NCBI GenBank assembly: GCA_032355985.1
Contig: JAUKVZ010000009.1
Location: forward strand, 38,504-102,503
DNA length: 64,000 nucleotides
Direction: 5' to 3'
Source: Sarcodiotheca gaudichaudii
Lineage: Eukaryota > Rhodophyta > Florideophyceae > Gigartinales > Solieriaceae
The notes under the pieces were generated by a model. That model had not been told where the DNA came from. It searched no databases and worked only from the letters and a program-made list of their open reading frames with translations. The position numbers and the translations under genes are program-made. Each line of letters begins with the position of its first letter. The stretch's first letter is position 1. Of this stretch, positions 19,186-47,541 are shown piece after piece.

Positions 19186-19195
19186 CCCCTGTCGA

Positions 19196-26666: not shown

Positions 26667-27011
26667 AGTTTCGCTCCATTCACGATCGTCAATGTCATTA
26701 CGGCCAACCCGACGCCGCGCCAAAACCTCGTTCCAGCGCCGCCAGAGCCGATCCCCGAGAGACACGGCCACACGAGCGCCGCTCCCCCATCCAGACGCGT
26801 GATACCGCCACTCCCGCCACAGGCTTCACATTCCCGAGGCCAATCCTCTTAAGGCGCCTCAGAAGCGCACGAGCGCAGATTGTCCCCCCCGGCGCCCCCC
26901 TCTCGACCCCCTGACAGCCTGTCAATCTCTGCGCACGCATCACTTCCACCCCCATGTGGCGGAACCGGTCCGCGACGACTGCCGAATATGCTCGCAGCAG
27001 AAAGGCCCTCC
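26667..27011. other. Divergent intergenic region
   Basis: It separates the minus-strand metalloprotease from the start of the + strand FG-GAP array and should hold promoters for both directions. I see no clear -35/-10 pair, no hairpin with a T-run and no supported small gene. Confidence 0.4.
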
Positions 27012-27170
27012 ATGAAGAAGCGCCCCCTCTCCTCCTCTGCCGCCTGTCTCCTCGCCCTCGGCGCTGGAGCCTCCGCAATCGCCGAGCCCCCATTCCCCGC
27101 AGACTTCAACGTCGGCGCGCTCGACACCGCCCTCGACATCGCCATCCTGCTGAGCTACTGGACGAACTGA
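27012..27170 (+). pseudogene. Signal-peptide/dockerin-end minigene, deletion relic of an FG-GAP paralog
   Basis: A 52-codon frame. Its N-terminus M-K-K-R-P-L-S-S-S-A-A-C-L-L-A-L-G matches the next gene's signal peptide (M-N-K-R-P-L-T-C-A-A-C-L-L-A-L-G), including the P-P-F-P after the cleavage region. Its last 13 residues A-L-D-I-A-I-L-L-S-Y-W-T-N are identical to that gene's last 13. Everything between (seven blades, first dockerin loop) is absent. The simplest reading is an internal deletion of about 540 codons in a duplicate. It keeps an intact frame and AAAGG before the ATG, so a short secreted peptide could still be made. Confidence 0.65.
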
Positions 27171-27213
27171 ACGACCCTGCCAGCCTGCAAACATGCTGGC
27201 GGCAAAGCACCCA

Positions 27214-28998
27214 ATGAACAAACGCCCCCTCACATGTGCCGCTTGTCTCCTCGCCCTCGGCGCCGCAGTTCCCGTCATCGCAGACCCGCCCTTCCCGGAT
27301 GTCCTTCCGGTGAACGAGCTGCGCCTTGATGAAGGTTTCCGAATCGTCCGCGCCCCCGACAGCGGCGGCGCCGGAACCGCCCTCGCATCCGCAGGCGATG
27401 TCAACGGCGATGGCGTCGATGACATCCTCATCGGCGCCTGGAACGCATCGCCCGGCGGAGGGCTTCGCACAGGACAGACCTTCGTCGTGTTCGGCGACAG
27501 CGACATCGCGCTCCACGGCGACCTCGATCTCGACACACTTGACGGCTCAAATGGATTCGTGATCGACGGCGTCAGCGAAGACCCTCTCAGCAGATGGTCG
27601 ATCGCAGGCGCCGGCGATATCAACGGCGACGGCTTCAAGGACATCGTCATCGGCGTCCCGTACGTCGGTCTCTATCCGAATGAAGACCGCGGCATGGCGT
27701 TCGTGATCTTTGGAGCCGCGGACATCGGCGCGTCCGGCGTCATCGAGCTAGCCTCGCTCGATGGCAAGAACGGCTTCGCCATCGAAGGTTTGTCCGGTGG
27801 CGATCGTCTCGGAGAGTCCGTCGATGGCGCAGGTGACGTCAATGACGATTCAATCGACGATCTCATCCTCGGCGCCCCCGGCGTCTTCGACCGCGATGAT
27901 GACTTCGGCGCAGGACGAGCGTACCTCATCTTCGGCGCTGCTGAGTTGGGCGCCGCAGGCAGCTTTGATCTCGACGCGCTCGATGGAGACAATGGCTTCC
28001 GATTCACGTCGCGTTCCTACGCAAACAACAATCTTCGCATCGACGGAGTCGGCGAATCCGTCGCAGGCGTGGGCGATTTCAACGGCGACGATGTCGACGA
28101 CCTGCTCATCGGCGCCCCGGGGTCGACGCCTGACGAGTCTGCACGCGGCGAGGCGTATCTCATCTTCGGCAGCGCCGATCTCGGCGCCTCCGGGCGCATG
28201 CAAGTCGAGGATCTGACCGGCGCCAACGGGTTCGTAGTAAGAACTGTCGACGAGCGATTCGAGGATCTGGGCAGCATCGTCGCGGCCGCCGGTGATGTCG
28301 ATGCAGACGATCACGCGGACGTGATCATTGGGCGACCGTACTTCGGGCATCGCTCGATTCTCCTGCGTGGCGGATCAATCGTTGGAGCATCCGGCGCGAT
28401 CACGATCTATGAGAGTGCAGAGTTCGGTGGCCATGTCATCTATGGTCCATGCAATGACATCGCGTGCGCCGGTGACATGAACGCGGACGGCCTTGACGAC
28501 ACTCTCTTCGGTCTGCGCCTCTCAGGCGGTTGTAATCCATTTGGCGGCGTCGATCCCGGCTTGGCGTTTGCGCTCCTGGGAACGCCAGATCCCCAGGCGC
28601 AGGATCCGGTCGATCTTTATGCGCCGTCTCCGCACGTCATTCAACTGATCGGCGATGCGCATGAACTTCCACCAACGGATTTCTGCCCCAAAGGAAGTCC
28701 ATATCGGGGATTCGGACAGACTCTCTCCGCCGCCGGCGATATCAATGACGACGGCTACGACGACTTCCTCCTGTCCGTGCCGTCTGCCCCCCGCGTCCAC
28801 GTCATCTTCGGCCGCAACGTCACATCACTCGGCGACCTCGACGACAACAACACCGTCGACGCAACAGACCTCGCCGACCTCCTCACCCAGTGGGGCCCAT
28901 GCGCCGAAGAGCCATCCCCCTGCCCGGCGGACCTCGACGGCTCCGGCCATGTCACTGCGCTCGACATCGCCATCCTGCTCAGCTATTGGACGAACTAA
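27214..28998 (+). CDS. FG-GAP seven-blade propeller protein with GC-type dockerin, array copy 1
   Basis: A 594-aa secreted protein. After the signal peptide come seven FG-GAP units with calcium loops such as D-V-N-G-D-G-V-D-D followed by I-L-I-G-A, an integrin-alpha-like beta-propeller. This is the most diverged copy: loops 3 to 5 are altered (D-V-N-D-D-S-I-D-D, D-F-N-G-D-D-V-D-D, D-V-D-A-D-D-H-A-D) and blade 6 holds a Cys pair. The tail is D-L-D-D-N-N-T-V-D-A-T-D-L, W-G-P-C, P-C-P-A-D-L-D-G-S-G-H-V and L-S-Y-W-T-N. Start 27214 is chosen by alignment with the relic upstream; 27193 is an in-frame alternative. Predicted cell-surface or secreted adhesin or binding protein; ligand unknown. Confidence 0.82.
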   Translation: MNKRPLTCAACLLALGAAVPVIADPPFPDVLPVNELRLDEGFRIVRAPDSGGAGTALASAGDVNGDGVDDILIGAWNASPGGGLRTGQTFVVFGDSDIALHGDLDLDTLDGSNGFVIDGVSEDPLSRWSIAGAGDINGDGFKDIVIGVPYVGLYPNEDRGMAFVIFGAADIGASGVIELASLDGKNGFAIEGLSGGDRLGESVDGAGDVNDDSIDDLILGAPGVFDRDDDFGAGRAYLIFGAAELGAAGSFDLDALDGDNGFRFTSRSYANNNLRIDGVGESVAGVGDFNGDDVDDLLIGAPGSTPDESARGEAYLIFGSADLGASGRMQVEDLTGANGFVVRTVDERFEDLGSIVAAAGDVDADDHADVIIGRPYFGHRSILLRGGSIVGASGAITIYESAEFGGHVIYGPCNDIACAGDMNADGLDDTLFGLRLSGGCNPFGGVDPGLAFALLGTPDPQAQDPVDLYAPSPHVIQLIGDAHELPPTDFCPKGSPYRGFGQTLSAAGDINDDGYDDFLLSVPSAPRVHVIFGRNVTSLGDLDDNNTVDATDLADLLTQWGPCAEEPSPCPADLDGSGHVTALDIAILLSYWTN

Positions 28999-29006
28999 GT
29001 CCCCAC

Positions 29007-30122
29007 TTAATCCAGCGTCTCCCGCAGCTGCTCCCCATCCACGCGCAGCGTCCGACGGATCTCATCCGTCTTGAACCCAAGCAGCTTCGGCCGCATCACG
29101 CTCTTCAGCGCCACGACGTCATACAGCTCCTTGACCATCCCCTCGATGCGCAGCCAATGCTCCGTCGTCCCCGTCTCAAGATCCACGACATGCACGGCGC
29201 AGCGCGCCTCGGCCGCACGATCTTCCAGGTTCTTATCAAGAGGCAATCCGCTGAACGTCCTGTTCTCGCGGCTGGCGCTCAACCCCACCAGCGCCTTCTT
29301 TCCGAAGAAGCTCATCCCGCGCAAAAACCCAGGGCAGAACGCCACCTCGTGAAACGAGCGATCGCTCCCGCCCGTGTTCACATACCCCAGAAAACCCGTC
29401 CCCGCATTCAAAAGCCACACGCGATCCGGCCAATCAGGATGCACCCGCGGCGAATGCGGCATCGACAGCCCCTCAGCTGCCACATCATTCGTCCGCACAT
29501 CCATCAAAAGCCCGCCGCCATCACGATGATCCCGCCAGCCATCACTCACATCCGACCGACTCACCATCGATACATACGCCGGCTCTCTTCTAACAGGATC
29601 AAACGCCATCCCGTTCAGATGACAACGATCCTCCGCCACCAGCCCCGAAATAAATGGCGGCTTCCAGATCGGCACAAAACTTCGCTCCGAATCCACCGTC
29701 GCCAGACAGTTGAACAAAGTCGCACAAAAGACCGGCGTCCCATCGCTGCGGCAATGCAGATCGTGAATATCAATATCACCCGTCGTATGCCCCACCGTCG
29801 GCACATACAACCGATCAAACCCGTCAGCCGTCGCGGCGCCCTGCGGCACATAGTTCTCCATCCGCCACAGCTGATACAGCGACGTCATCCACACCGTCTG
29901 CGCCGCATCATCAACATGCATCCCCATGCATCGATTAAACGTGCGCTCAAAGACGGAAAGCTTCCCATCCGGCTGCACGCCGACCATAAAGAGCTTCCCG
30001 ATCTGATACGTGGTGAACGCCAGACTCACGCGCTCCCGAGCCATCCACGAGACCAGCCCGCGTGAAGCCGTGAGCGCAAGCCCCTCACCCTTGCCCGTTC
30101 CGCCTGTTGGTGTCTGCGTCAT
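29007..30122 (-). CDS. TIGR03032-family protein of unknown function
   Basis: A 371-aa cytoplasmic-looking protein lacking a signal peptide. Family-like segments: L-A-F-T-T-Y-Q-I-G-K-L-F-M-V-G, R-C-M-G-M-H-V, L-W-T-S-type W-M-T-S-L-Y-Q-L-W-R-M-E-N, G-D-I-D-I-H-D-L, L-F-N-C-L-A-T-V-D, H-L-N-G-M-A, and L-L-N-A-G-T-G-F-L-G. These fit TIGR03032 (DUF4915), a six-bladed-propeller-like family often near TPR or sulfotransferase genes; no biochemical role is established to my knowledge. It is the only minus-strand gene inside the FG-GAP array and converges on copy 1 with 8 nt between stops. Confidence 0.8.
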   Translation of the reverse strand: MTQTPTGGTGKGEGLALTASRGLVSWMARERVSLAFTTYQIGKLFMVGVQPDGKLSVFERTFNRCMGMHVDDAAQTVWMTSLYQLWRMENYVPQGAATADGFDRLYVPTVGHTTGDIDIHDLHCRSDGTPVFCATLFNCLATVDSERSFVPIWKPPFISGLVAEDRCHLNGMAFDPVRREPAYVSMVSRSDVSDGWRDHRDGGGLLMDVRTNDVAAEGLSMPHSPRVHPDWPDRVWLLNAGTGFLGYVNTGGSDRSFHEVAFCPGFLRGMSFFGKKALVGLSASRENRTFSGLPLDKNLEDRAAEARCAVHVVDLETGTTEHWLRIEGMVKELYDVVALKSVMRPKLLGFKTDEIRRTLRVDGEQLRETLD

Positions 30123-30179
30123 GCAAAAAGCGTATCAAGCGCGCCCGGAGAGTGTCACAGCGGCGCCCATGATTTCCTG

Positions 30180-30208
30180 TTGGCGATTGCGGCGGCGAGG
30201 CGTATCTT
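30180..30208 (+). promoter_or_regulatory. Candidate promoter of FG-GAP copy 2
   Basis: TTGGCG (30180-30185) and TATCTT (30203-30208) separated by exactly 17 nt, 34 nt upstream of the ATG at 30242. Pattern match only. Confidence 0.4.
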
Positions 30209-30241
30209 GGGCAAATCCCGAGGTTGATTCCAGCACGAACC

Positions 30242-31996
30242 ATGCACCAGACCCACCGCACAACAGCCGCGATCCTCGCCTTCGCCGGCGCCGCCGAAGC
30301 GATCGGCGGATCTCCATTTCCCGCGTTCATCGACCTTTCCTCGCTCGACGCCTCCGTCGGTGTCGCGATCAATGGAGTCGATGATAGCGATCAGGCAGGC
30401 TTCTCAGTCTCATCCGCTGGCGACGTCAACGGCGACGGCATCGACGACATCATCATCGGAGCATTCGGAGCAGAGCCGAACGGCCATGTCTCAGGCGCTG
30501 CCTACGTCGTCTTTGGAGCGCTGAACATCGGCGCGGCCGGAGCGATCGAACTCTCGTCAGTGAACGGCGCAAACGGATTCGTCATCAATGGCATCGCTGG
30601 GTACGACTACGCCGGAAGATCTGTCTCCGGCGCCGGCGACATCAATGGCGACGGATATGCCGACCTGATCATCGGCGCCACAGGCGCGGACCCCAGTGGC
30701 GATAGGTCAGGCCAAAGCTATGTCGTCTTCGGAGGCCCCAATATCGGCGCCGGCGGAGCGATTGAGCTTTCATCACTCAATGGCGTCAACGGTTTCGCCA
30801 TCAACGGAGTTGATGAACACGACGGCAGCGGCGCGTCGGTGTCCGCCGCAGGTGATGTCAATGGCGACGGAATGGGCGACATCATCATCGGCGCGCCCGG
30901 CGCAAGTCCTGCTGGCTTACACGTCGGAGTGAGCTATGTCGTCTTCGGAGCGCCCGCCATCGGCGCATCCGGCGCGTTCGAACTCGCGTCGATCAATGGC
31001 GCAAATGGATTCGATATCAGAGGCGCCGTTACCTACGACTTCAGCGGTTTCTCCGTTGCAGCGGCCGGAGACGTCAACAACGACGGATTCGATGACGTGA
31101 TCATCAGCGCGTTCGACGCCGATCCACACGGACACCGCTCCGGCGAAAGCTATGTCGTGTTCGGCGGCAAGGAAGTCGCTGCCGGCGGCTCACTCGAACT
31201 CGCAACGCTCAATGGCCTGAACGGATTCGCCATGCGCGGAATCGATGAGAACGATTACAGCGGCTTCTCCGTCTCAGGAGCAGGCGATGTCAATGACGAC
31301 GGCATCGACGACGTGATCGTCGGCGCCTTTGCTGCCGATCCGAATGGCTTTGGCTCCGGCGAGGGATACGTTGTCTTCGGCGCCCCGACGGTCGGCGCCG
31401 GCGGAGTGATCGAACTCTCGTCCCTCAACGGCGCAAACGGATTCACGATCAACGGAATCGACCTTCTCGATCACTGCGGACGAGCCGTTGCGGCCGCCGG
31501 TGATGTCAACGGAGACGGCGTCGACGATCTCATCATCGGCGCATATCGCGCCGGCCCTTTGTCATCACACGAAGGCGAGTCTTACATCATCTTCGGCGCA
31601 TCGGATGTCGGCACAGGAGGCGTCATCGAAATCTCAACGCTCGACGTCAATGATGGTTTCACCGTGCGCGGAGACCGCTCAGGCGATCACAGTGGCGAAG
31701 CCGTCTCATGCGCGGGCGACGTCAACGGCGACGGCGTCGCCGACCTGCTCATCGGCGCGCGACAAGCTGATCCAAACGGGAGCTTTTCAGGCCAAACCTT
31801 CGTCATCTTCGGCCGCGCACGCTCCTCCGCAGACCTCAACTGCGACGGCCTGATCAGCGCCGTCGACCTCGCCATACTCCTCAGCTTCTGGGGACCATGC
31901 GCCGCCGCGCCAACCCCCTGCCCCGCCGACATCGACGGCTCCGGCGACATCGGCGCCTCCGACCTCGCCCAACTCATCGGACTCTGGGGTTCCTGA
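30242..31996 (+). CDS. FG-GAP seven-blade propeller protein with GC-type dockerin, array copy 2
   Basis: A 584-aa secreted protein. Its seven blades are regular, each about 68-70 residues: S-x-x-G-D-V-N-G-D-G-x-D-D-x-I-I-G-A, then A-D-P-N-G and S-Y-V-V-F-G, then I-E-L-S-S-L-N-G-A-N-G-F. The dockerin tail has D-L-N-C-D-G-L-I-S-A-V-D-L (a Cys in the first loop), F-W-G-P-C and D-I-D-G-S-G-D-I-G-A-S-D-L, ending L-W-G-S. The ATG at 30242 starts the signal peptide; a TTG at 30224 in frame is less likely. It opens a run of + strand paralogs to 47456. Confidence 0.85.
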   Translation: MHQTHRTTAAILAFAGAAEAIGGSPFPAFIDLSSLDASVGVAINGVDDSDQAGFSVSSAGDVNGDGIDDIIIGAFGAEPNGHVSGAAYVVFGALNIGAAGAIELSSVNGANGFVINGIAGYDYAGRSVSGAGDINGDGYADLIIGATGADPSGDRSGQSYVVFGGPNIGAGGAIELSSLNGVNGFAINGVDEHDGSGASVSAAGDVNGDGMGDIIIGAPGASPAGLHVGVSYVVFGAPAIGASGAFELASINGANGFDIRGAVTYDFSGFSVAAAGDVNNDGFDDVIISAFDADPHGHRSGESYVVFGGKEVAAGGSLELATLNGLNGFAMRGIDENDYSGFSVSGAGDVNDDGIDDVIVGAFAADPNGFGSGEGYVVFGAPTVGAGGVIELSSLNGANGFTINGIDLLDHCGRAVAAAGDVNGDGVDDLIIGAYRAGPLSSHEGESYIIFGASDVGTGGVIEISTLDVNDGFTVRGDRSGDHSGEAVSCAGDVNGDGVADLLIGARQADPNGSFSGQTFVIFGRARSSADLNCDGLISAVDLAILLSFWGPCAAAPTPCPADIDGSGDIGASDLAQLIGLWGS

Positions 31997-32004
31997 GCAC
32001 GACG

Positions 32005-32030
32005 ACCACCGGCGCGCCGCGCGCCGTGGT
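32005..32030 (+). terminator. GC-rich hairpin after FG-GAP copy 2 (possible terminator)
   Basis: ACCAC and GTGGT flank CGGCGCG and CGCGCCG-like arms with one bulge, beginning 9 nt after the stop at 31996. No T-run follows, so it may be a stability element rather than an intrinsic terminator. Confidence 0.3.
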
Positions 32031-32173
32031 CCCATACACCTGAACAGGGTTATCGCACCACGTGCGCACAGCTACGCGCGTCCTTATCAACCCGCATTCG
32101 ACCAATTTTGCTGGGAGCGGGCGCCAACTCCACTTAAACTCTTGCCTCCTGAGTTCTTACGGAGGCCATGACC

Positions 32174-35020
32174 ATGCCCGCCCGTGCGCCGTTTTCATCC
32201 GCCGCCATCATCCTTCTCGCCGGATCAGCCGCCGCCATCGCCGCCGGCCCATTCGGCGAAGTCATCGAGTTGTCAACCCTCAATGGCGCCGATGGCTTCG
32301 TGCTCAATGGCGCCGGCTTTTATGCCAGCAGCGGCTACGCCGTGTCATCCGCCGGCGATATCAATGGCGACGGCGTCGATGATCTCATTATCGGAGCCTA
32401 TGGCGCCAGCCCGAACGGCACAGCCTCCGGCCAGACCTATGTCGTCTTCGGCGCCACCGACGTCGGCGCCGGAGGGTCCATTGAACTGTCAGCGCTCAAC
32501 GGAACGAATGGATTCGCCCTCGATGGAATCTACGACGTCGATCGAAGCGGCGTCTCCGTCTCAGCCGCCGGCGATGTCAACAACGACGGCATCGATGATC
32601 TCATCATCGGCGCCAATTATGCGGATCCCAACGGATCCGCATCCGGCGAAAGCTACGTCGTCTTTGGTGGACCCACCGTCGGCGCCACCGGAACGGTCGA
32701 ACTCTCATCACTCAATGGCGCCAACGGGTACATCATCAATGGCGCCAACGCAGGCGATTACAGCGGCGGCGCCGTCTCATGCGCCGGCGATGTCAACGGC
32801 GACGGCATCGATGATCTCATCATCGGAGCCCGCGGCGCCGACCCGAACAGCTTCAACTCCGGCGAGAGTTACGTCGTCTTCGGAGGATCCACCGTCGGCG
32901 CCGCCGGATCGGTCGAACTCTCATCACTCAATGGCGCCAATGGGTTCATCGTCACCGGCCCAAACGCGGGCGATATCTGCGGCAGTTCCGTCTCATCCGC
33001 CGGTGATGTCAACGGCGACGGTGTCGACGATCTCATCATCGGCGCCCACGGCGCCGACCCCAATGGACTGTACTCCGGCCAGAGCTACGTCATATTCGGA
33101 GGATCCCACACCGGAGAAGAAGGAACAATCGACCCCTCCACCTTCGATGGCGAAGAAGGATTCGTCATCAATGGTGTCAATGCATACGACCGCGTCGGCC
33201 GCTCCGTATCTTCCGCAGGTGATGTCAATCGCGACGGCTTCGACGATCTCATCATCGGGGCAGAAGGCGTCGAAACAAATGGAAACTTCGCCGGCGCAAG
33301 CTACATCATCTTCGGCGCCCCCGATGTCGGCATGGGAGGAACAATCGAAATCGCGTCGATCAATGGAGCGAACGGCTTCGTGATCAACGGCGTCGATGTG
33401 AACGACTCAAGCGGCAGATCCGTCTCATCAGCAGGCGATGTCAACGGCGATGGATTCCATGATCTCCTGATCGGCGCATACAAAGCGCAGCCGAACGGGC
33501 CTGACTCCGGAGAGTGCTACGTCGTCTTCGGTGGCCCGGCCGTCGGCGCCGCAGGAACAATCGAACTCGCCGCGCTCGATGGTGATGATGGATTCGTCCT
33601 GGAAGGAATCGAACAGGACGACCTCTGCGGCGTCTCCGTCTCACCGGCCGGCGATGTCAACTGCGACGGAATCGATGACTTCCTCATCGGCGCGCCTGGA
33701 GCCGATCCGAACGGCTCGTACGATGGCGAATCCTACGTCGTCTTCGGCAAACCATCTCAGTTCTGGAGCAACCCAGCGGGTGGCGATTTCGACACCGCAT
33801 CAAACTGGCTCTGCAACGCCACCCCGATCGCGGGCTATGTGGTGATCAACCCGGCAATCGGTGTCACCGTCAACGGCCCTCCCGGTGCGCTCTTCGTCAG
33901 CACACTCGTGCTCGACGCAGACCTCGGCCGCACAACGCTCGACATGCAGGCGGGCTCACTCATCAGCGTCGAACGTGATTTCACGATCTCCTCGTCCGCC
34001 GCACTCGTCGGCGAAGGAACGTTCGTCGCCGAATCCGCCTTCACCAATGACGGCCTTATCGAGCCGACCGCCCTCGCGCTCGTCGCAGCGCAAGGCATCA
34101 CCAACAGCGGCGACATCACACTTGAAACTTTCGGCCCGACAACGACCCCCGAGCGACTCACTGTCTTCGGAGCGCTGACAAACGAGACCGGCGCACACAT
34201 CACCGCACGCGGCGCCGCATCCATCGAGTTTGCCGATGGCGTCACTAACTCCGGATCACTGAGTGTCGCATTCGCCCAGGCGACCGTCACCGGCCCGCTC
34301 ACCAACGTCGGAACCGATGACGGCATGGGCGGATTCGACCCCCTCGGAGTCATCTCTGTCTCCGGCGGATCCGAAGCGCTGCTCTCCGGAGACATCCTCA
34401 ATCAATCGAACATCTTCGTCACGCCCGACTCCACACTCTCCATCCTCGGCAGCCTCACCGGCAACGGCGTCTCCGGCCCCGACGGCATGGCAGGAACAGT
34501 CTTCATCGAAGGCGACTTCAATCCGGGATTCGCGCTCTCCACATCCATCACATGCTTCGAGGGCGACCTCACCATCAGCGCCCGAAGCGACACGTCCATT
34601 TCAATCGGCGGCACAAGCGCCGGCGCGCAACACGATCAGGTCATAAGCACGACATCAGTCACTGCCGCAGGCGACCTCAGGATCGAACTCGTAGGCGACT
34701 TTGCCCCATCCCGCGGCGACACCTTCACCATCATCAGCGCGCCCGCCGTCAACACGTCGTTCAATACGTTCACCGCGCCGCCCCTGCCGGACCCCCTCGT
34801 CTGGCGACTCATCGAAGAGCCGACGCACACCCGCGTGCTCGTCACTGTCGCCGCGGACCTCAATAGCGACGGCGTCGTCAGCGCAAACGACCTCGCCACA
34901 CTGATCAACAATTGGGGCCCGTGTCCCGCGTCGCCAACGCCATGCAAGGCAGATCTGGATGGCGACGGAACAATCGGCGCTTCCGACCTTGCCCGCATCA
35001 TCGGACGCTGGGGATCCTGA
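32174..35020 (+). CDS. FG-GAP seven-blade propeller protein with extra beta-rich region and GC-type dockerin, array copy 3
   Basis: 948 aa. Seven blades fill residues ~30-525. From about 530 a long extra region begins W-S-N-P-A-G-G-D-F-D-T-A-S-N-W, then repeated short strands (L-D-M-Q-A-G-S-L-I-S-V, F-T-N-D-G-L-I-E-P-T, L-T-N-E-T-G-A-H-I, N-S-G-S-L-S-V), and I-E-G-D-F-N-P-G-F-A and G-D-T-F-T-I-I-S-A, a pattern typical of right-handed beta-helix/autotransporter-like passenger regions. The dockerin starts near 893 with N-N-W-G-P-C-P. GGAGG lies 8 nt before the ATG at 32174, which is preferred over the ATG at 32168. Confidence 0.83.
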   Translation: MPARAPFSSAAIILLAGSAAAIAAGPFGEVIELSTLNGADGFVLNGAGFYASSGYAVSSAGDINGDGVDDLIIGAYGASPNGTASGQTYVVFGATDVGAGGSIELSALNGTNGFALDGIYDVDRSGVSVSAAGDVNNDGIDDLIIGANYADPNGSASGESYVVFGGPTVGATGTVELSSLNGANGYIINGANAGDYSGGAVSCAGDVNGDGIDDLIIGARGADPNSFNSGESYVVFGGSTVGAAGSVELSSLNGANGFIVTGPNAGDICGSSVSSAGDVNGDGVDDLIIGAHGADPNGLYSGQSYVIFGGSHTGEEGTIDPSTFDGEEGFVINGVNAYDRVGRSVSSAGDVNRDGFDDLIIGAEGVETNGNFAGASYIIFGAPDVGMGGTIEIASINGANGFVINGVDVNDSSGRSVSSAGDVNGDGFHDLLIGAYKAQPNGPDSGECYVVFGGPAVGAAGTIELAALDGDDGFVLEGIEQDDLCGVSVSPAGDVNCDGIDDFLIGAPGADPNGSYDGESYVVFGKPSQFWSNPAGGDFDTASNWLCNATPIAGYVVINPAIGVTVNGPPGALFVSTLVLDADLGRTTLDMQAGSLISVERDFTISSSAALVGEGTFVAESAFTNDGLIEPTALALVAAQGITNSGDITLETFGPTTTPERLTVFGALTNETGAHITARGAASIEFADGVTNSGSLSVAFAQATVTGPLTNVGTDDGMGGFDPLGVISVSGGSEALLSGDILNQSNIFVTPDSTLSILGSLTGNGVSGPDGMAGTVFIEGDFNPGFALSTSITCFEGDLTISARSDTSISIGGTSAGAQHDQVISTTSVTAAGDLRIELVGDFAPSRGDTFTIISAPAVNTSFNTFTAPPLPDPLVWRLIEEPTHTRVLVTVAADLNSDGVVSANDLATLINNWGPCPASPTPCKADLDGDGTIGASDLARIIGRWGS

Positions 35021-35083
35021 ACCAGATCGTCGCCGCCACGACTCTGGATCCTGCATCTTCCGGCACTGACGAAAACCATGTCC

Positions 35084-37933: not shown

Positions 37934-38096
37934 ACCGGGCACGCCCCCTCCGCGCCGCTCCCCGTGCGCCCAATTCGTCGGCGTAGCTCGCGCCCACGCC
38001 GATTGAACAAGCAATCCAGTTCGCTTGGCCGATACATCCAGGACCGCTTCATTCTCGACCTCCCCCCTGAAGGGGAGATACACCGAGGTCCTGCAG

Positions 38097-39899
38097 ATGA
38101 AATCCCACCCATTGGCGCGATACGCGCTGGCCGCATGCGCATGCTTCGCGCCCGCACGTGTCGCATCCGCCCAGTCGCCCTTCCCCTATATTCTCGATCT
38201 TGAGACGCTCGCCTCAGGCGATGGCGTCACGATCAACGGAGCCCGTGGCCAAGGCGCCGAATCAACCGACCGAGGCGACTACAGCGCAAGAGCAGTCGCG
38301 CTCGCCGGTGACATCAACAACGACGGTATCGACGACCTTCTCATCGGCGCCCCATACGTTGACACGGAAACCTCAACGAACGCCGGCTGTGTCTACGTCC
38401 TCTTCGGCGGCGCCGAGTTCAACGCGCACGACACGATCGAACTCGCCGACCTCGATCCAACCATGGGATTCTGCATCTTCGGCGCCACCGAGTACGACGA
38501 ATGCGGCATCTCCGCCGCCGCGGCGGGTGACGTCAATGGCGATGGCGTTGACGACATCATCGTCGGCGCCGTCAATGCCGATCGCGCGGGAAACGCGTAC
38601 ATCATCTTCGGCGCCGAGGACATCGGCGCATACGGCCCCATCGATTTGGGGACTCTCAGCGCCGGCCAGGGCGCCATCTACCGCGGCTTCGATGTCAGAA
38701 GCTCAACCGCCTCGACTGTCTCCGCCGCCGGAGATCTCAATGCAGACGGCTTCGATGATGTCGTCATCGGCGCACGCCTGGCCAACCCCGGACGCCTGGA
38801 CCTCTGCGGCCAGGCGTATGTCATCTTCGGCGCCGCCGATCTCGGCGCCCACGGCGTCGTCAATCTCGATTCACTCAATGGCGCCAACGGCTTCTACGTC
38901 AACGGGCGTTTCCAGAGCGGCCACACCGGCAGCGCATTCGCTGTCGGAGATGTCAACAACGATGGCCGCGACGACCTTCTCATCAGCGCCCCCTACGCGA
39001 CGCCCAGATACAACCAATGGGTCGGTGAGGTCTACGTCCTCTTCGGCTCGCCGACCATTGGAAGCGCCGGCGTCATGCATCCGGATGACCTCGATGGCGG
39101 GAACGGCGTCGTCATTGTCGGCGCCTTCAACAGCTTCGAAACAGGCCGTTCACTTGCGACTGGAGATCTCAACGCCGATGGCGTGGCGGACATCATCATG
39201 GGCGCCGTCGGACTCACGCCTGACGCAGAACATGGTTTCCCGCGCGACATTGGAGGCGCCTGGGTGCTCTATGGAGGCGCTCATCTCGGCGACGATGCGA
39301 TCGTCGATCTTGAGCAGATCACCTCATCCGACGGGTTCCTGATTCTCGGAGTAGACGAGAGCGATCAAGTTGGCGCCTCCGTCGCCGCCACGGATCTCAA
39401 TGCGGATGGAATCGATGACCTCATCATCGGCGCACCCGGCGCAGTGCGGATCTACAAGGGAGAGACGTATGTCTTCTTCGGCGCCGCTGATATCGGCGCA
39501 GACGCCGAACTCTTTATCAGCGAACTCGAATCTCTCAACGCATTCCGAGCGGTAGGCTTCGACCAGCTCTCATACTCAGGATCACGAGTCGCAGCCGCAG
39601 GCGATGTCAACGCCGACGGCGTCCAGGACTTCATCATCGGCGCATCCAGCGCAAGCCCGGATGGCAGAAAGAACGCCGGGCAGTCATATCTCATCTTCGG
39701 CAGACGAGCGCCGCAGCCCGGCGATCTCACCAATGACGGCCGCGTCGATCTCGCGGATATGGCCACCCTCCTCGGCGACTGGGGCGCCTGCCCGCAGATG
39801 ACCGCATGCCCCGCCGACTTCGACGAGTCCGGCGCTGTCGCCGCACACGACCTCGCCATCCTCCTCAGCTACTGGACCGCGCCCGACGCCTCGAACTGA
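38097..39899 (+). CDS. FG-GAP seven-blade propeller protein with GC-type dockerin, array copy 5
   Basis: 600 aa. The signal peptide ends A-S-A-Q-S-P-F-P. The seven blades are more diverged than in copies 2-4: loops include T-G-D-L-N-A-D-G-V-A-D and A-T-D-L-N-A-D-G-I-D-D. The tail is D-L-T-N-D-G-R-V-D-L-A-D-M, W-G-A-C-P-Q-M-T-A-C-P-A-D-F-D-E-S-G and ends S-Y-W-T-A-P-D-A-S-N, with the linker changed from P-x-P-C to Q-M-T-A-C. The ATG at 38097 follows CGAGGT; a frame extension to 38025 precedes the signal and is rejected. Confidence 0.82.
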   Translation: MKSHPLARYALAACACFAPARVASAQSPFPYILDLETLASGDGVTINGARGQGAESTDRGDYSARAVALAGDINNDGIDDLLIGAPYVDTETSTNAGCVYVLFGGAEFNAHDTIELADLDPTMGFCIFGATEYDECGISAAAAGDVNGDGVDDIIVGAVNADRAGNAYIIFGAEDIGAYGPIDLGTLSAGQGAIYRGFDVRSSTASTVSAAGDLNADGFDDVVIGARLANPGRLDLCGQAYVIFGAADLGAHGVVNLDSLNGANGFYVNGRFQSGHTGSAFAVGDVNNDGRDDLLISAPYATPRYNQWVGEVYVLFGSPTIGSAGVMHPDDLDGGNGVVIVGAFNSFETGRSLATGDLNADGVADIIMGAVGLTPDAEHGFPRDIGGAWVLYGGAHLGDDAIVDLEQITSSDGFLILGVDESDQVGASVAATDLNADGIDDLIIGAPGAVRIYKGETYVFFGAADIGADAELFISELESLNAFRAVGFDQLSYSGSRVAAAGDVNADGVQDFIIGASSASPDGRKNAGQSYLIFGRRAPQPGDLTNDGRVDLADMATLLGDWGACPQMTACPADFDESGAVAAHDLAILLSYWTAPDASN

Positions 39900-39909
39900 G
39901 CCAACTCCC

Positions 39910-41664
39910 ATGCGCACGAACACCCTTCATCGTTACATCGCCGCTCTCGTATTCGCCCTGATCCCCGCCGCCAACGCATCCGCGCAGAGCCTCTTCCCCG
40001 CGTCGATCGATCTCATCAATGTGGCCCCTGGTGAAGGCGTGATCATCGACGGCATAAACGACCACGACTTCAACGGTTTCTCCGTCGCGCGAATCGGAGA
40101 CATCAACAACGACGGCCGGGACGACTTCGCCATCGGCGCTCCCTACGCCGGAGACTTCGACAACTTCGAGTACTTCCAGGGCAAAGCCTTCATTCTCTTC
40201 GGCTCCCCGGACATCGCGGACGTATCGACGATCGACCTTGCGAATCTCAATGGACACAACGGATTCACCCTGACCTCATCGGAGGACTTGCATCGACTCG
40301 GCTTCGTCGTCGCGGCGGCCGGCGACATCAACGATGACGGCGTCGATGACTTCCTCGTAACCGCCGATGGCGCCTCAGTCGGCGAAAAACGCAGCGCCGG
40401 AGTCACCTACATCATCTTCGGCGATCCAGACATCGGCGCAGGCGGCGCCCTCGATCACACCGCGCTCGATGGCGGCGACGGCTTCACCTTCGTCGGCGCG
40501 CACACCGATGACCACTGCGGACACGACGCCGATGGCGTCGGCGATGTCAACGCGGACGGCGTAGACGACATCATCATCAGCTCACCCGCTGCGAACTACA
40601 ACGGCCAGGTCTATGTCATATTCGGTTCGACCACTGTCGGAGCCGCCGGAATGCTCGCACCAACAGATCTCAACGGGCACAATGGCGTCATCATCAATGG
40701 CGCCTACTTCGAGGATCAATGCGGCGATAGCGTCGCATGCGCCGGCGATGTCAACGCCGATGGTCACAACGACATCATCATCGGCGCCCCCTACGCCGCG
40801 CCGAACAAGCTGTGGTTCGCCGGAGAGTCATATGTCGTCTTCGGCGGCCCTCAGCTCGCCTCGCAACCCGTCATCGAACTGACGGATCTCGATGGCGCAA
40901 ACGGATTTCGAATTCTGGGTTTCCAGCAGCAGGACTTCAGCGGCGTCGTCTCATCCGCAGGCGACCTCAACGCCGATGGCGTCGACGATATCGCCATCGC
41001 AGCGCCTTCCAGCGTCACCGCAGAGACTGGTCGACTAAGCGTCATCTTCGGCCGCCCCGGCATCGGCCAGGACGGCGTGCTCGATTTCACGGCGCTTCCC
41101 CCGTCCCAGTCCATACTCATCACCGGCCCCGATGCGCTCAGCTCATTCGGATACGCCATCGGCAACGCCGGAGACCTCAACAACGACGGCCACGACGACT
41201 TCGCCATCGGCGCCCCCGGCACACACACGAACTTCTCAGGCGCCGTCTATGTCCTGTTCGCATCATCATCATTCAACACCCAGCCCGTCTGCGACCTCGA
41301 CGCTCTCGATGGCGCCGACGGATTCGTCGCATACACGCTCGCCGACGACGGCGTCTGCGGCGCCTCAGTCGGTGCAGCCGGAGATATCAATCATGATGGC
41401 GCCGATGACCTCCTCATCGGAGCGCCATGGACGGACATGCCCGGCGCCGAACACAGCGGCCGCTCATACATCATCTTCGGCAAGAGCCCAATCCCTGCAG
41501 ATCTCACCGGCGACGGCGTCATCACAGCGCTCGACCTCGCCACACTTCTCAGCTACTGGGGAACCTGCCCCGCACAACCCACCCCCTGCATCGCCGATCT
41601 CGATGGCTCCGGTGATGTCGGCGCCGCCGACCTCGCCGAGATGATCGGCTACTGGGGTTCCTGA
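39910..41664 (+). CDS. FG-GAP seven-blade propeller protein with GC-type dockerin, array copy 6
   Basis: 584 aa. The start lies 10 nt after the stop of copy 5, so the two are probably co-transcribed. The signal peptide ends N-A-S-A-Q-S-L-F-P, the same style as copy 5. Seven blades with loops such as D-I-N-N-D-G-R-D-D-F-A-I-G-A and D-L-N-A-D-G-V-D-D-I-A-I-A-A. The tail is D-L-T-G-D-G-V-I-T-A-L-D-L, Y-W-G-T-C-P, D-L-D-G-S-G-D-V-G-A-A-D-L and ends G-Y-W-G-S. Confidence 0.82.
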   Translation: MRTNTLHRYIAALVFALIPAANASAQSLFPASIDLINVAPGEGVIIDGINDHDFNGFSVARIGDINNDGRDDFAIGAPYAGDFDNFEYFQGKAFILFGSPDIADVSTIDLANLNGHNGFTLTSSEDLHRLGFVVAAAGDINDDGVDDFLVTADGASVGEKRSAGVTYIIFGDPDIGAGGALDHTALDGGDGFTFVGAHTDDHCGHDADGVGDVNADGVDDIIISSPAANYNGQVYVIFGSTTVGAAGMLAPTDLNGHNGVIINGAYFEDQCGDSVACAGDVNADGHNDIIIGAPYAAPNKLWFAGESYVVFGGPQLASQPVIELTDLDGANGFRILGFQQQDFSGVVSSAGDLNADGVDDIAIAAPSSVTAETGRLSVIFGRPGIGQDGVLDFTALPPSQSILITGPDALSSFGYAIGNAGDLNNDGHDDFAIGAPGTHTNFSGAVYVLFASSSFNTQPVCDLDALDGADGFVAYTLADDGVCGASVGAAGDINHDGADDLLIGAPWTDMPGAEHSGRSYIIFGKSPIPADLTGDGVITALDLATLLSYWGTCPAQPTPCIADLDGSGDVGAADLAEMIGYWGS

Positions 41665-41780
41665 CCACTGCGCTCCTTAAATAGGATGCCCCCCAAACTT
41701 CCCCCCACCCCACATTCCTCCTTGGATCGCCCTCATCCCTCAACTAAGGTGTCCCCCAGGGACCACCTGAAGGGACGAAA

Positions 41781-43529: not shown

Positions 43530-43590
43530 TTCGCACCACCCCCCGAGCGCACCGATACCCCCTTCCCCAACCATTCGACGCACGCCCGCT

Positions 43591-43701
43591 TTATCGGTTC
43601 CAAACAAACCAAGAACCGGATCCCCACCCAGCCGCGGCTCGAATCATCTACCAACTCCAACGCCGTTTTCCCTACGAAAACACCATTCCACGATGTAAAA
43701 T
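43591..43701 (+). promoter_or_regulatory. Conserved promoter module of FG-GAP copy 8 with palindromic site
   Basis: Contains TTATCGGTTCCAAACAA (43591-43607), the perfect palindrome GTTTTC-N5-GAAAAC (43665-43681) and TAAAAT (43696-43701). The same three blocks precede copy 9, with the palindrome centre 23 nt before the hexamer in both. The palindrome covers the expected -35 position, so a dimeric regulator could act there. Confidence 0.55.
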
Positions 43702-43732
43702 CACGGCGTAGCGATTCCTCCGGAGCCTCGCC

Positions 43733-45469
43733 ATGAAGCAGCTTCCCACCTGCGCCGCCGCGCTCATCCTCCTCGCAGGATCAACCCACGCGGCAACCGG
43801 CGGCCTCTTCGGACCAACCGTCGAACTCGCCGATCTCAACGGCGCCGACGGTTTCATCATCCATGGCGTCAACGAAGGCGATTTCGCTGGCAAATCAGTC
43901 TCCGCGGCAGGCGACATCAATGGCGACGGCGTCGACGACATCATCATCGGCGCATGGGGTGTTGAGACGACCGACGACTACACCGGCGCCGTCTACGTCG
44001 TCTTCGGCGCAAGTGACATCGGCGCAAGCACACCGCTCGAACTCGCATCGCTCAATGGCGCCAACGGTTTCGTCATCTATGGACAGGCAGAGAACGATCG
44101 CTTCGGCGAATCCGTCTCAGCAGCCGGAGACGTCAACGGTGATGGCCTCGACGACATCATCATCGGCGCTTCATACGCCACCGGCACGAGCGGCGCAAGC
44201 TACATTCTCTTTGGCGCCGCAAACATCGGCGCCGGCGGCGTATTCGATCTCGCGACCCTCGATGGCTCAAACGGCTTCTTCGCCAGGACCAGCCAGGTGA
44301 GTTCCGACGGCAGGTCAGTCGACGACGCCGGCGACATCAACGGCGATGGCGACGACGATCTCATCATCGGCGCCCCGTTTGCAAGTTTCGATAGAGTCTG
44401 GACCGGCGCCGCATACGTCGTCTTCGGAGGTGTCGGCGTCGGCGCCAGTGGCGACGTCGAGCTTTCAGATGTCGATGGCGTCAGCGGATTCCTCATCAAG
44501 GGAATCGAGCACTTCGACGAAACCGGCCAGTCAGTCGCCGCCGCCGGTGACATCAACAACGATGGCATGGACGACGTCATCATCGGCTCGCCCACCGCCA
44601 ATCATTTGGCCAAAGGCCGCGCATACGTCGTCTTCGGCGACGCCAACGTCGGCGCCGGCGGCACGCTCGAGCTCGCCACGATCAACGGCGCAAACGGCTT
44701 CGTCATGAACGGACTCAACGACCGCGACTGGTGCGGCTGGTCCGTCACATCACCCGGCGATATCAACGCCGATGGCGTCGTTGATGTCATCGTCGCCGCC
44801 CATCAGGCCGACCCCAACGGCGACCGCTCCGGACAGTGCTATGTCATCTTCGGAGGCGACAACGTCGGCGCCACAGGCGAAATCGATCTCACAAGTCTCG
44901 ATGGCGACAACGGTTTCGTCATCAACGGCGCCAACGAATACGACATCTGCGGCATGTCCGTCGCCTCAGCCGGCGACATCAACGGCGACGGCGTCGACGA
45001 CCTCCTCATCGGCGCACGCAACGCAGATGGAAGCATCCCATACACCGGCGTCGCCTACGTCCTCTTTGGCAAGCCCGACATCGGCGCCGGCGGCGTCTTT
45101 GAACTCACAAGCGTCAATGGAAACAACGGCTTCGCCATCAACGGACGCAATCAGGCTGATCAGACCGGCGTCTCAGTCTCCGCGGCTGGCGACGTCAACA
45201 ATGATGGCGCCGACGACATCATCATCGGCGCATGGGGCGACGACACCAACGGCGAACACGCCGGCGCCACCTACATCCTCTTCGGCAAACCCTGCAACGA
45301 AGCAGACCTCACCGGAGACTGCATCGTCACCGCCGTCGACATCGCCGAACTACTCGGCGCCTGGGGACCATGCCCCGCCGAACCCGACCCCTGCCCAGCC
45401 GACCTCGACGGCTCAGGAAACGTCGGCGCATCCGACCTCGCCATCCTCATCGGCGCATGGACAAACTGA
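43733..45469 (+). CDS. FG-GAP seven-blade propeller protein with GC-type dockerin, array copy 8
   Basis: 578 aa. GGAG lies 8 nt before the ATG within a leader (CTCCGGAGCCTCGCC) shared with copy 9. Seven blades; blade 3 has D-I-N-G-D-G-D-D-D and blade 5 the variant P-G-D-I-N-A-D-G-V-V-D. The tail is D-L-T-G-D-C-I-V-T-A-V-D-I (Cys in the first loop), A-W-G-P-C-P, D-L-D-G-S-G-N-V-G-A-S-D-L and ends G-A-W-T-N, nearly the same as copy 9's tail. Confidence 0.84.
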   Translation: MKQLPTCAAALILLAGSTHAATGGLFGPTVELADLNGADGFIIHGVNEGDFAGKSVSAAGDINGDGVDDIIIGAWGVETTDDYTGAVYVVFGASDIGASTPLELASLNGANGFVIYGQAENDRFGESVSAAGDVNGDGLDDIIIGASYATGTSGASYILFGAANIGAGGVFDLATLDGSNGFFARTSQVSSDGRSVDDAGDINGDGDDDLIIGAPFASFDRVWTGAAYVVFGGVGVGASGDVELSDVDGVSGFLIKGIEHFDETGQSVAAAGDINNDGMDDVIIGSPTANHLAKGRAYVVFGDANVGAGGTLELATINGANGFVMNGLNDRDWCGWSVTSPGDINADGVVDVIVAAHQADPNGDRSGQCYVIFGGDNVGATGEIDLTSLDGDNGFVINGANEYDICGMSVASAGDINGDGVDDLLIGARNADGSIPYTGVAYVLFGKPDIGAGGVFELTSVNGNNGFAINGRNQADQTGVSVSAAGDVNNDGADDIIIGAWGDDTNGEHAGATYILFGKPCNEADLTGDCIVTAVDIAELLGAWGPCPAEPDPCPADLDGSGNVGASDLAILIGAWTN

Positions 45470-45559
45470 AGCGCCGACTGCGCGCTTCAGCAAACGTCGC
45501 TGTCGACGCCACCAAAGCGCACCGATAGCCGCATCTCCTTCATTCGATGCGCAGCCGAC

Positions 45560-45669
45560 TTATCGGTTCCAAACAATTTCAAAAACCGGATCCACACCCC
45601 CCCGCGGCCCGAATGAACCACTGACGCAAGCCGTTTTCCCTTCGAAAACAGCTACGCTCGGCGTAGAAT
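45560..45669 (+). promoter_or_regulatory. Conserved promoter module of FG-GAP copy 9 with palindromic site
   Basis: Second copy of the module upstream of copy 8: TTATCGGTTCCAAACAA at 45560-45576, GTTTTC-N5-GAAAAC at 45633-45649 and TAGAAT at 45664-45669. The 14-nt gap from palindrome to hexamer is identical to that of copy 8, while the sequence between conserved blocks has drifted. Confidence 0.55.
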
Positions 45670-45700
45670 CACTGCACCCTCGCGACTCCGGAGCCTCGCC

Positions 45701-47456
45701 ATGAAGCAGTTCTCCACCCGCGCCGCCGCACTCATCCTCCTCGCAGGCATGGTCCACGCCGCGACGACAGGCACATTCGAAGCGACGATTGAGCTCACTG
45801 AACTCAACGGCGACAACGGGTTCACCATGTACGGTGTCACCGCAACCGAATACAGCGGCGGCGCCGTATCCAATGCGGGTGACATAAACGGCGATGGAGT
45901 GGACGACCTGATCATCGGAGCCCAGTTCGCCAGCGCAAGCGAAGCCGTATCCGGCAAGTGCTACGTCGTGTTCGGCGCCAAAGGCATTGGCGCGAGCGGC
46001 GGATTGGATCTCTCGACACTCAATGGAGCGAATGGCTTCACGATCAATGGCATTGATGCGAGCGACTTTGCTGGTCGCTCGGTGTCCGCGGCAAGCGACG
46101 TCAACGCCGACGGATTTGATGATCTGATCATTGGAGCGTACCGCGGCGCCCCCAACGGCTTTGGATCCGGAGAAAGCTACGTCGTCTTCGGCGCACCCAA
46201 TGTCGGCGCAGGAGGCACGATCGAGCTTGCGACGCTCGATGGAGACAACGGGATTCCTCCTCGCTGGCGTCGACCCAGGTGACAGCAGCGGCGTGAAAGT
46301 GTCCGATGCAGGCGATATCAACAATGATGGCGTCGATGACATTGTCATTGGCGCCGTGAGCGCCGACCCGAACGGTGACCGGTCCGGCGAAGCCTACGTT
46401 GTGTTCGGCGCAGTCGACATTGGCGCAGCCGGCGCAATCGAACTTTCATCGCTCAATGGCGCGAACGGCTTCGTCATCAATGGGGTCGACGAAGACGATC
46501 GCTGCGGCGACTCCGTGTCCTCGGCGGGCGATATAAACAACGATGGCGTCGATGACTTGATCATCGGCGCTCTCAACGCTGGACCCGATGACAACGAATC
46601 GGGTGCAAGCTACATCGTCTTCGGGTCATCCAACGTCGGCGCAGGCGGGGTGCTTGAGCTTTCATCGCTCAATGGCGCCAACGGATTCGTGATCAAGGGC
46701 ATCGATGCTGATGATCACAGTGGCCATGCCGTCTCCTACGCTGGCGACATTAACGCCGATGGCGTGGATGACGTCATCATCGGAGCGTATGAAGCCGATC
46801 CGAACGGCAACCTCTCCGGCGAGAGCTACGTTGTGTTTGGCGCAGCCGGAATCGGCGCCGGCGGAGCAATGGATCTCGCATCACTCGATGGCGCCAACGG
46901 ATTCGTGCTGAATGGAATCAACAGCCGTGACTGGAGTGGATACTCAGCATCCGGCGCCGGAGATGTCAATGGCGACGGCGTCGATGATCTGATCATCGGA
47001 GCCTTGCGAGCCGCCCCAAATGGCACAGACTCAGGCCAGAGCTATGTCGTATTCGGAGCGACTGATATCGGATCGAGCGGTGAGTTCGAACTCTCTGCGC
47101 TCAGCGGAGCCAACGGATTCGCGATAAACGGCGCAGGGCAGGATGATCGAAGCGGCCGCTCCGTCTCAGGCGCCTGTGATCTCAATGCCGATGGCATTGA
47201 CGACGTGATCACAAGTGCGGGTGGCGCAGTTCCGACAAGGGGATTTAACGGCGCCACCAATGTCATCTTCGGCCGGTGCACGAACCCCGCAGACCTCACC
47301 GGAGACTGCATCGTCACCGCCGTCGACATCGCCGAACTCCTCGGCAACTGGGGACCATGCCCCGCCGAACCAGCCCCCTGCCCAGCCGACCTCGACGGCT
47401 CAGGAGACGTCGGCGCATCCGACCTCGCCATCCTCATCGGCGCATGGACAAACTGA
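45701..47456 (+). pseudogene. FG-GAP seven-blade protein, array copy 9, split by a single-base frameshift
   Basis: The frame from the ATG at 45701 (signal peptide like copy 8) runs through two blades and stops at 46282. The rest continues in the +2 frame to 47456. The switch lies at the G-run 46250-46252, in a conserved D-G-D-N-G-F position: one extra G turns the expected Phe codon frame into G-I-P-P-R. Counting both frames there are seven blades and an intact dockerin (D-L-T-G-D-C-I-V, N-W-G-P-C-P, G-A-W-T-N). Either a sequencing or assembly indel or a genuine recent mutation; no other stop is present, so decay is recent if real. Confidence 0.8.
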
Positions 47457-47541
47457 ACCGTCTCCGCCCTTAGCGCAAATCAAAAGCCGCAAACGCCCAA
47501 AAGCGCCCGCGGCCTTCCATCCCTTCCTCCATCAATCAAAG

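Follow-up and report, generated by a model that had tools for sequence, protein, structure and literature searches.

Nine tandem genes for secreted, predicted calcium-binding, integrin-like propellers with a common docking tail on a planctomycete contig

Overview

Nine paralogous propeller genes (c1 to c9) lie on the plus strand of a planctomycete contig, with one minus-strand gene between them, and encode secreted, predicted Ca-binding, integrin-like propellers with a docking tail common to all nine. Our preferred reading, to which we assign a probability of roughly 0.52, is that gene birth and death at this locus has produced an array of secreted, calcium-stabilized surface binding modules sharing a receptor that is not recognizable as a cohesin. 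The parts of these proteins are of known kinds.

Organization of the locus

The window, that is, the whole stretch of 64,000 nucleotides analysed, contains the array and its conserved flanks as follows.

20601..23714, minus strand: M36 metallopeptidase whose dockerin tail is of the array type; conserved array flank
23895..26771, minus strand: DUF4953/DUF5117 met-zincin; conserved array flank
26988..27170, plus strand: relic of a deleted tenth copy, 60 aa; signal peptide of the c1 type that runs in frame into the final half of a dockerin
27193..28998, plus strand: c1, seven-loop FG-GAP propeller and dockerin tail, 601 aa; least symmetric blades
29007..30122, minus strand: TIGR03032/DUF4915 protein; conserved neighbour of propeller genes
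30224..31996, plus strand: c2, propeller and dockerin tail, 590 aa when read from the listed TTG, an uncertain start; this copy was modelled
32168..35020, plus strand: c3, propeller, middle domain of ~360 aa and dockerin tail, 950 aa
35078..37933, plus strand: c4, propeller, middle domain and dockerin tail, 951 aa; within-gene blade likeness 67%
38025..39899, plus strand: c5, propeller and dockerin tail, 624 aa when read from the listed TTG; likelier start a Met 24 codons in
39910..41664, plus strand: c6, propeller and dockerin tail, 584 aa
41781..43529, plus strand: c7, propeller and dockerin tail, 582 aa; tree partner G059 B3
43733..45469, plus strand: c8, propeller and dockerin tail, 578 aa; leader and upstream DNA common to c8 and c9
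45701..47456, plus strand: c9 as a whole, in two overlapping frames
45701..46282, plus strand: first frame of c9, signal peptide and loops 1–2, then frameshift
46131..47456, plus strand: second frame of c9, loops 3–7 and dockerin tail; tree partner the intact G059 B8
47541..47615, minus strand: tRNA-His between the array and PEPCK; same place in G059
47902..49557, plus strand: ATP-type PEPCK; conserved right flank
49579..50403, plus strand: CAAX-type (Rce1-like) protease; conserved right flank

This layout bears out a preliminary description of nine tandem paralogs on one strand with a single minus-strand interruption; the array is real, but the start given for it there (27012) falls inside the relic and not inside c1. 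The relic was recognized from its tail match, sequence and translation, and its flank matches c1 and the G059 copies B1 and B2 in blastn, near their start and at their end. The frame of c9 shifts near position 46250, and since the gene occupies two overlapping frames it is either broken or affected by a sequencing error. Promoter-like sites numbered 3, against 3.9 in shuffled sequence, and thus showed no excess, and terminator-like sites numbered 17 against 12.2; we draw no conclusion on operon or promoter signals.

Propeller heads

The strict calcium-loop pattern G-D-x-N-x-D-G-x-D-D, by which every copy had been credited with exactly seven loops, recovers only 3–7 loops per intact copy. When ordinary substitutions are allowed, each of c1–c8 has exactly seven and c9 has 2+5, so that the count of seven stands under the relaxed pattern, compared with a mean of 0.05 and a maximum of 2 in 1000 residue shuffles of c2. 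Pfam FG-GAP (PF01839) was matched above its cut-off by c1–c8 and by the second frame of c9. The proposed closed, seven-bladed, integrin-alpha-like fold is supported by a good model of c2, the one copy modelled, and the heads are accordingly classed as predicted integrin-type FG-GAP seven-bladed propellers, the architecture being read from sequence and the fold from that model. By domain order they do not qualify as true integrin alpha subunits, in which thigh and calf domains and a transmembrane helix come after the propeller: what comes next here is either just the dockerin tail or first the middle domain and then the tail.

Bacterial integrin-type propellers have been surveyed before, with a predicted integrin-alpha fold and planctomycetes among the groups counted (PMC3192720). 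The proteins of that survey resemble ours in their seven FG-GAP repeats, each of which has one Ca site, but their role is limited to the cytoplasm, whereas the present genes have signal-peptide-like starts, dockerin tails and a tandem arrangement; the words 'dockerin' and 'paralog' were not found in its text. Seven loops are also common outside the array: among the 120 homologues ranked best in a listing of 7985, 72 have exactly this number, as do 64 of 112 once G034 and G059 genes are removed. We therefore reject a fixed blade number as a special trait of this locus, as which it had been presented.

Mean within-gene blade identity ranges from 32% (c1) to 67% (c4). FG-GAP is among the highly repetitive beta-propeller families in a study of propellers amplified from single blades (PMC9218822), in which within-gene identities >60% are described; c4 resembles these, but here a single locus spans internal symmetries from 32% to 67%, all with seven loops. 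The locus, which can be compared with a syntenic relative, thus brings together propellers that differ greatly in internal symmetry and is useful for studying the evolution of propellers and binding faces. Between paralogs of the array, blades at the same position are barely more alike than blades at other positions (0.449 vs 0.444). Against a null of cyclic rotations, a signal as high arose in 5/300 trials for the window, 0/300 for G059 and 0/300 for G034, which gives weak evidence that blade positions are kept between paralogs. This comparison covered 28 of 30 genes (194 blades), B3 and B4 being left out because they have fewer than seven recognized loops.

The preliminary description did not include an extra domain of ~360 residues between propeller and tail in c3 and c4. 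Searches there returned no Pfam family, and no NCBIfam family besides the tail. It was modelled with pLDDT of about 63–94, and since its best Foldseek match, a beta-helix, had an E-value of 3.3e-3, with none at or below 1e-3, we call it only beta-solenoid-like.

Comparison with related genomes

In the related genome G059 this locus recurs between the same flanking genes, the M36 peptidase being 61% identical over 493 residues, but with 2+6 copies where the window has 1+8; in G034 eight copies are scattered over the genome. A syntenic array with conserved flanks and a different copy number shows that the array is real, disposing of the concern that it might be an assembly artefact, and that it evolves by birth and death. 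In the gene tree, c7 pairs with G059 B3 (100/99), which has only four loops by the same pattern, and c9 with the intact G059 B8 (100/100), and the paired genes occupy corresponding array ends in the two genomes. The comparison shows that copies have been gained by duplication and lost by internal deletion and frameshift.

Selection and variability of the binding face

All 11 comparisons gave dN/dS < 1 (0.12 for the c9–B8 pair), and the compared copies are under purifying selection on average. An origin of the array largely through recombination between repeats, with copy number and variety under little selection, would fit the relic and the frameshift, the differing copy number with scattered copies in G034 and the near-interchangeable blade positions; dN/dS values below 1 throughout and the retention of paired genes at the same array ends argue against it, and we regard this account as very doubtful.

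Constraint is strongest on the Ca loops, with a pooled dN/dS of 0.09, a value that is low partly by construction because the loops were located by their pattern. Together with the regular loop in every blade, it would suit a structural role in which the propellers bind Ca within an outer layer or matrix and copy number sets dose and not ligand variety. We hold such a role to be decidedly improbable, since c1 and c3–c8 are just 39–58% identical to c2 and the loops of the BC/DA face vary above the rest of the protein, the BC loops being kept in c9–B8 (pN 0.04) while those of c7–B3 are not (0.40).

The BC and DA loops are the most variable part among the paralogs, but their excess is equal in 30 listed homologues from other genomes (in the 22 left without G034 and G059 genes, 1.80/1.61 against 1.42) and therefore does not demonstrate array-specific diversification. 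The earlier characterization of the set as diversifying consequently finds no support, and positive selection on the top face is not demonstrated, given the dN/dS values above and this equal excess elsewhere. Only c7–B3 approaches or passes 1, in single segments (pN/pS of 0.40/0.43 for BC and 0.39/0.34 for DA); its first strand being just as loose (0.36/0.36), relaxed constraint is as likely an explanation as positive selection.

The dockerin-like tail

The nine tails have two loops each, and the same tail type occurs on unrelated secreted proteins in the window, in agreement with the single shared type described previously. The label 'GC-type dockerin', in the NCBI sense, does not hold for them: none meets NF041540 (cut-off 29 bits, best array score 16.7), a dockerin widespread among proteins of the order and matched 57 times in this genome. 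PF00404 (cut-off 22.9) was exceeded by c3 (35.2) and c6 (25.4) only, with c1 and c2 just below and the other five unlisted. A profile of ten tails matches solved dockerins, including nearly whole-length matches to cellulosomal type I dockerins (e.g. 2y3n_B), which likewise have two Ca loops; the present tails differ from these in the Cys-x6-Cys linker found in most, a W near the end, a known cargo of propellers and a peptidase and the lack of any cohesin found with PF00963.

A sorting or processing signal, perhaps removed by a dedicated machine as with T9SS, MYXO-CTERM and PEP-CTERM tails, would offer a different explanation from a docking module. The tail stands at the extreme C-terminus in 50 of 57 cases, the NCBIfam models nearest to the M36 peptidase (all below cut-offs) take their names from T9SS, myxosortase and rhombosortase, a choice-of-anchor B protein in the window has a weaker dockerin-like end, and homologues with propeller and middle domain end either in a dockerin (c3, c4 and P0112) or in PEP-CTERM (P0050). 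We nevertheless think this explanation unlikely: the homologue P0014 carries both dockerin and PEP-CTERM, and the Ca loops of the dockerin are kept, for which a cleaved signal has no obvious need. Exosortase occurs in 295 of 301 genomes of the order and in this one alongside dockerin tails, so that the dockerin as its replacement is rejected. The nine array proteins all end in the dockerin tail and are not PEP-CTERM cargo, the eight PEP-CTERM matches of the genome lying on other contigs; with both systems in one genome and both signals on P0014, the tail need not be an anchor.

The receptor question

A search of the whole genome with PF00963, which may miss diverged cohesins, returned zero matches, extending the reported lack of a cohesin in the window, and the cohesin-bearing scaffoldin that a cellulosome or cohesin–dockerin system requires was thus not found by this model. 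Across 301 sampled genomes of Phycisphaerales, GC-dockerins occur in 247 and a PF00963 cohesin in 31; G001 has no match, G059 is not among the 31 and G034 has one match below cut-off. These proportions make the binding partner of the tails a testable cell-surface question in a little-cultured group, for which the array offers ready baits: its numerous tails share one type and are attached to heads that can be modelled well.

The tail may instead be an ordinary dockerin for a cohesin too diverged for PF00963, in a cellulosome- or 'planctosome'-like complex. Its profile points this way, as does the presence of GC-dockerins in 29 of the 31 cohesin-positive genomes (Fisher p 0.09). Ruminococcus is reported to have diverged cohesins that PF00963 misses (PMC11557425), and for freshwater planctomycetes a peptidase complex built on cohesins and dockerins has been proposed (PMC6461901); the latter resembles our case in its non-cellulosomal dockerins with peptidases among the cargo, but its model needs cohesin proteins, which PF00963 did not find here. 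Because 218 of the 247 GC-dockerin genomes lack a cohesin match, and this genome, G001 and G059 also have none (G034 has one below cut-off), we consider an ordinary dockerin somewhat unlikely. Literature searches found no paper combining FG-GAP, Planctomycet and dockerin, nor one combining dockerin, PEP-CTERM and exosortase; 'GC-type dockerin' was absent from the 20 papers listed out of 751 in a further search, and 'dockerin', 'cohesin' and 'FG-GAP' were not found in the text of a genomic survey of Phycisphaerae (PMC11266412).

Proposed function

Under the preferred reading of a birth-and-death array with a receptor not recognizable as a cohesin, each gene encodes a signal peptide (read by eye), a predicted closed propeller of seven blades, each with its own Ca2+ loop, and a dockerin-like tail with two loops, a beta-solenoid-like domain being added in c3 and c4. 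As such tails also occur on unrelated secreted proteins of the genome, the tail would act as a common plug into a surface receptor not recognizable as a cohesin. The binding face of the propeller would be formed by the BC and DA loops, an assignment that we carry over from integrins. Since the paralogs differ most there, the ligand (a polymer, a glycan or a cell surface) would differ from copy to copy and would be held at the cell, and the proteins would serve as adhesins or ligand-binders.

A broader scheme, which we offer as speculation and think improbable as a whole, is that Phycisphaerales possess an order-wide surface docking system: in each genome, dozens of proteins would engage a non-cohesin receptor through their dockerin tails. 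The array would supply this system with a repertoire of integrin-like binding heads, tuned to the lineage, that arise and are discarded through duplication, and the DUF4915 protein retained next to the propellers would be its partner or modifier. For DUF4915 we found no solved relative at E ≤ 1 and no paper in the literature search. The minus-strand gene meets TIGR03032 with 407.2 bits (cut-off 251.5), and its counterpart at the same position in G059 is 90% identical.

Genomic setting and organization of the array

The window (G+C 62.6%) spans positions 38504–102503 of contig C9 in a 4.54 Mb genome of 61 contigs (G000). Because its PEPCK is nearest to those of six MAGs labelled Phycisphaerales, Phycisphaerae or Planctomycetota (65–69%), we take the source organism, on this sequence evidence, to belong to the Phycisphaerales or to be closely related to them. 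The loci considered here are as follows.

14468–16375: choice-of-anchor B protein (TIGR04312; 309.8 bits, cut-off 100)
20601–23714: M36 metallopeptidase with a dockerin tail
26988–27170: open frame of 60 codons (60 aa), just upstream of c1, in which a c1-like signal peptide passes straight, and in frame, into the final half of a dockerin
27193–47456, plus strand: nine FG-GAP protein genes (c1–c9, in order)
29007–30122, minus strand: TIGR03032/DUF4915 gene (407 bits, cut-off 251.5)
59626–61308: HAF-repeat protein with a dockerin tail, its tail linker longer than in the array

The preliminary description of nine FG-GAP genes on one strand, interrupted by a single minus-strand gene, agrees with these coordinates, except that the array start it gave, 27012, falls within the 60-codon frame. 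The DNA of this frame matches c1, as well as two genes at the same place in a compared genome, G059, both close to the gene start and at its end; from its sequence we read the frame as the probable scar of a deleted tenth copy. Also near the dockerin-tailed genes is a gene for a protein kinase that contains a long TPR region (16379–20029).

Propeller fold and integrity of the copies

Under a pattern allowing ordinary substitutions, exactly seven calcium-binding loops were found in each of c1–c8, and two in one frame plus five in another in c9. The earlier count of exactly seven per copy therefore stands for c1–c8 under this relaxed pattern only, the strict pattern originally used finding 3 to 7 per intact copy. 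Shuffled c2 yielded a mean of 0.05 loops, so the seven-loop counts are not due to chance. The predicted propeller fold is borne out by a structural model of one copy and by the sequences of all copies; at E ≤ 1e-3, a search with c2 alone yields at least 7985 relatives. A frameshift near 46250 splits c9 into two frames that overlap at 46131–46282; since its G059 counterpart (B8) is intact and both c9 pieces are under purifying selection relative to it (dN/dS 0.12 and 0.22), the break is either recent or a sequence error.

Across paralogs, blades at the same position were only slightly more alike than blades at different positions (0.449 vs 0.444, a level also reached by 5 of 300 rotations). Likeness among blades of one gene reached 0.67 in c4 and 0.58 in c3, both above the across-gene level, and was 0.32 in c1; rather symmetric and strongly diverged propellers thus stand side by side in the array.

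Conservation of the locus and variation in copy number

The same locus with the same flanking genes is present in G059, which shows that the array is not an assembly artefact. Its order there is M36 protease, DUF4953 protease, two propeller genes, opposite-strand DUF4915, six propeller genes, tRNA-His, PEPCK and CAAX protease, so that propeller genes on the two sides of DUF4915 number 2 + 6 (B1–B8), against 1 + 8 in the window. The M36 proteases share 61% identity over the 493 residues compared, and the four neighbour genes also compared 67–90%. Comparison thus establishes that the array is real and changes in size through gene gain and loss. Another compared genome, G034, has eight full-length copies over seven contigs, one still adjoining DUF4915, as well as other FG-GAP genes that are less closely related; in G001 there are two full-length copies plus fragments, many at contig ends.

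In a tree of 30 genes, in which 9 of the 27 inner branches had strong support, c9 paired with B8 (support 100/100) and c7 with B3 (100/99), a tenth member on contig C7 of G000 grouped with its G059 counterpart (87/84), c1 fell with B1 and B2 (81/67; long branches), and the eight G034 copies (L117–L124) formed one clade (96/89). Some members are therefore old and retained, others lineage-specific. The tenth gene lies outside the array (L125, 3384–5132, in G000; L114, 1869–3632, in G059), and in both genomes the protein of the next gene has a similar C-terminus. B3 (L113, 5993–7867) has only four recognisable calcium loops, its counterpart c7 seven.

Selection and loop variability

Array-type genes or gene parts gave dN/dS of 0.12–0.58, below 1 in all 11 comparisons, values that are rough because dS spans 0.48 to 1.64; four neighbour genes gave 0.11–0.37. 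On average, array-type genes are under purifying selection. In integrins, the ligand side lies on the BC and DA loops. These were the most variable part of c1–c8 (entropy 1.89 and 1.80 bits; the CD loops had 1.37, p 2e-7, and the calcium loops 0.77). Pooled over 11 pairs, each gene used once, dN/dS was 0.52 for BC and 0.54 for DA, vs 0.34 for CD and 0.09 for the calcium loops, whose constancy is partly by construction because they were located by their pattern. BC loops were kept in the c9–B8 pair (pN 0.04) and not in c7–B3 (0.40). The same order of entropy held in 30 listed homologues from other genomes (BC 1.83, DA 1.64, CD 1.41) and in the 22 left after removing eight G034 and G059 genes (1.80, 1.61, 1.42; p 0.009). 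The BC/DA excess is therefore a family property and no evidence of diversification of this array; together with dN/dS below 1 throughout, this leaves the diversifying set originally proposed unsupported.

Dockerin-like tails and their possible receptor

A profile of ten tails (the nine array tails plus the M36 peptidase tail) matched the cellulosomal dockerin 2y3n_B over positions 1–53 of 55 (E 5.8e-5), calmodulins coming next (E 0.0015 and above), which by profile identifies the array tails as dockerin-like. Two of the nine pass the Pfam dockerin cut-off and none the NCBI GC-type cut-off (NF041540), so their earlier assignment to the GC type does not hold in NCBI's sense. G000 has 57 NF041540 places at E ≤ 1e-3, 11 above cut-off. 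A count of tails in the loci examined likewise came to 57, of which 40 are on propeller proteins; in 50 of these tails no more than six residues separate the end from the stop. Among 301 genomes sampled from the order around G001, NF041540 matches occur in 247 (above cut-off in 229), cohesin matches in 31 (above cut-off in 26) and both in 29; a whole-genome profile search of G000 returned no cohesin match. The C-terminus of the choice-of-anchor B protein resembles a dockerin more weakly (12.3 bits, cut-off 29). For the M36 peptidase, the nearest NCBIfam models, none of which reaches its cut-off, take their names from T9SS, myxosortase and rhombosortase tails.

Homologues with the c3/c4 architecture carry a dockerin (P0112), a PEP-CTERM (P0050) or the two together (P0014, in which the middle domain resembles that of c3/c4 only in part); the co-occurrence in P0014 speaks for the dockerin as a docking module and against its being the anchor. 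Exosortase is present in 295 of the 301 genomes and in two copies in G000, which has eight PEP-CTERM matches, five above cut-off. Replacement of exosortase by dockerin tails is thereby ruled out: the two exist side by side. As a conjecture, a tail receptor anchored by exosortase would fit. Signal peptides were read by eye. A shared receptor would hold the array proteins at the cell surface, and binding might be through the BC/DA face, different copies possibly taking different ligands.

Integrin-type propellers in bacteria (PMC3192720), freshly amplified propellers (PMC9218822) and planctomycete non-cellulosomal dockerins (PMC6461901) are already known. In the literature searched, we found neither a dockerin-tailed propeller array nor a joint treatment of dockerin, PEP-CTERM and exosortase.

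Association with DUF4915

Strong propeller matches (E ≤ 1e-60) are present in 30 genomes, and 18 of these also have DUF4915 relatives (E ≤ 1e-40), vs 10 of the 271 others (Fisher 2e-14, uncorrected for kinship). In five of the 18, DUF4915 lies at most 650 bases from a listed propeller match, in two more at 2.0 and 2.9 kb, and in 11 far off or on another contig. Because scoring covered just the top four propeller places of each genome, these figures for proximity are a lower bound. The link may partly reflect inherited gene order.
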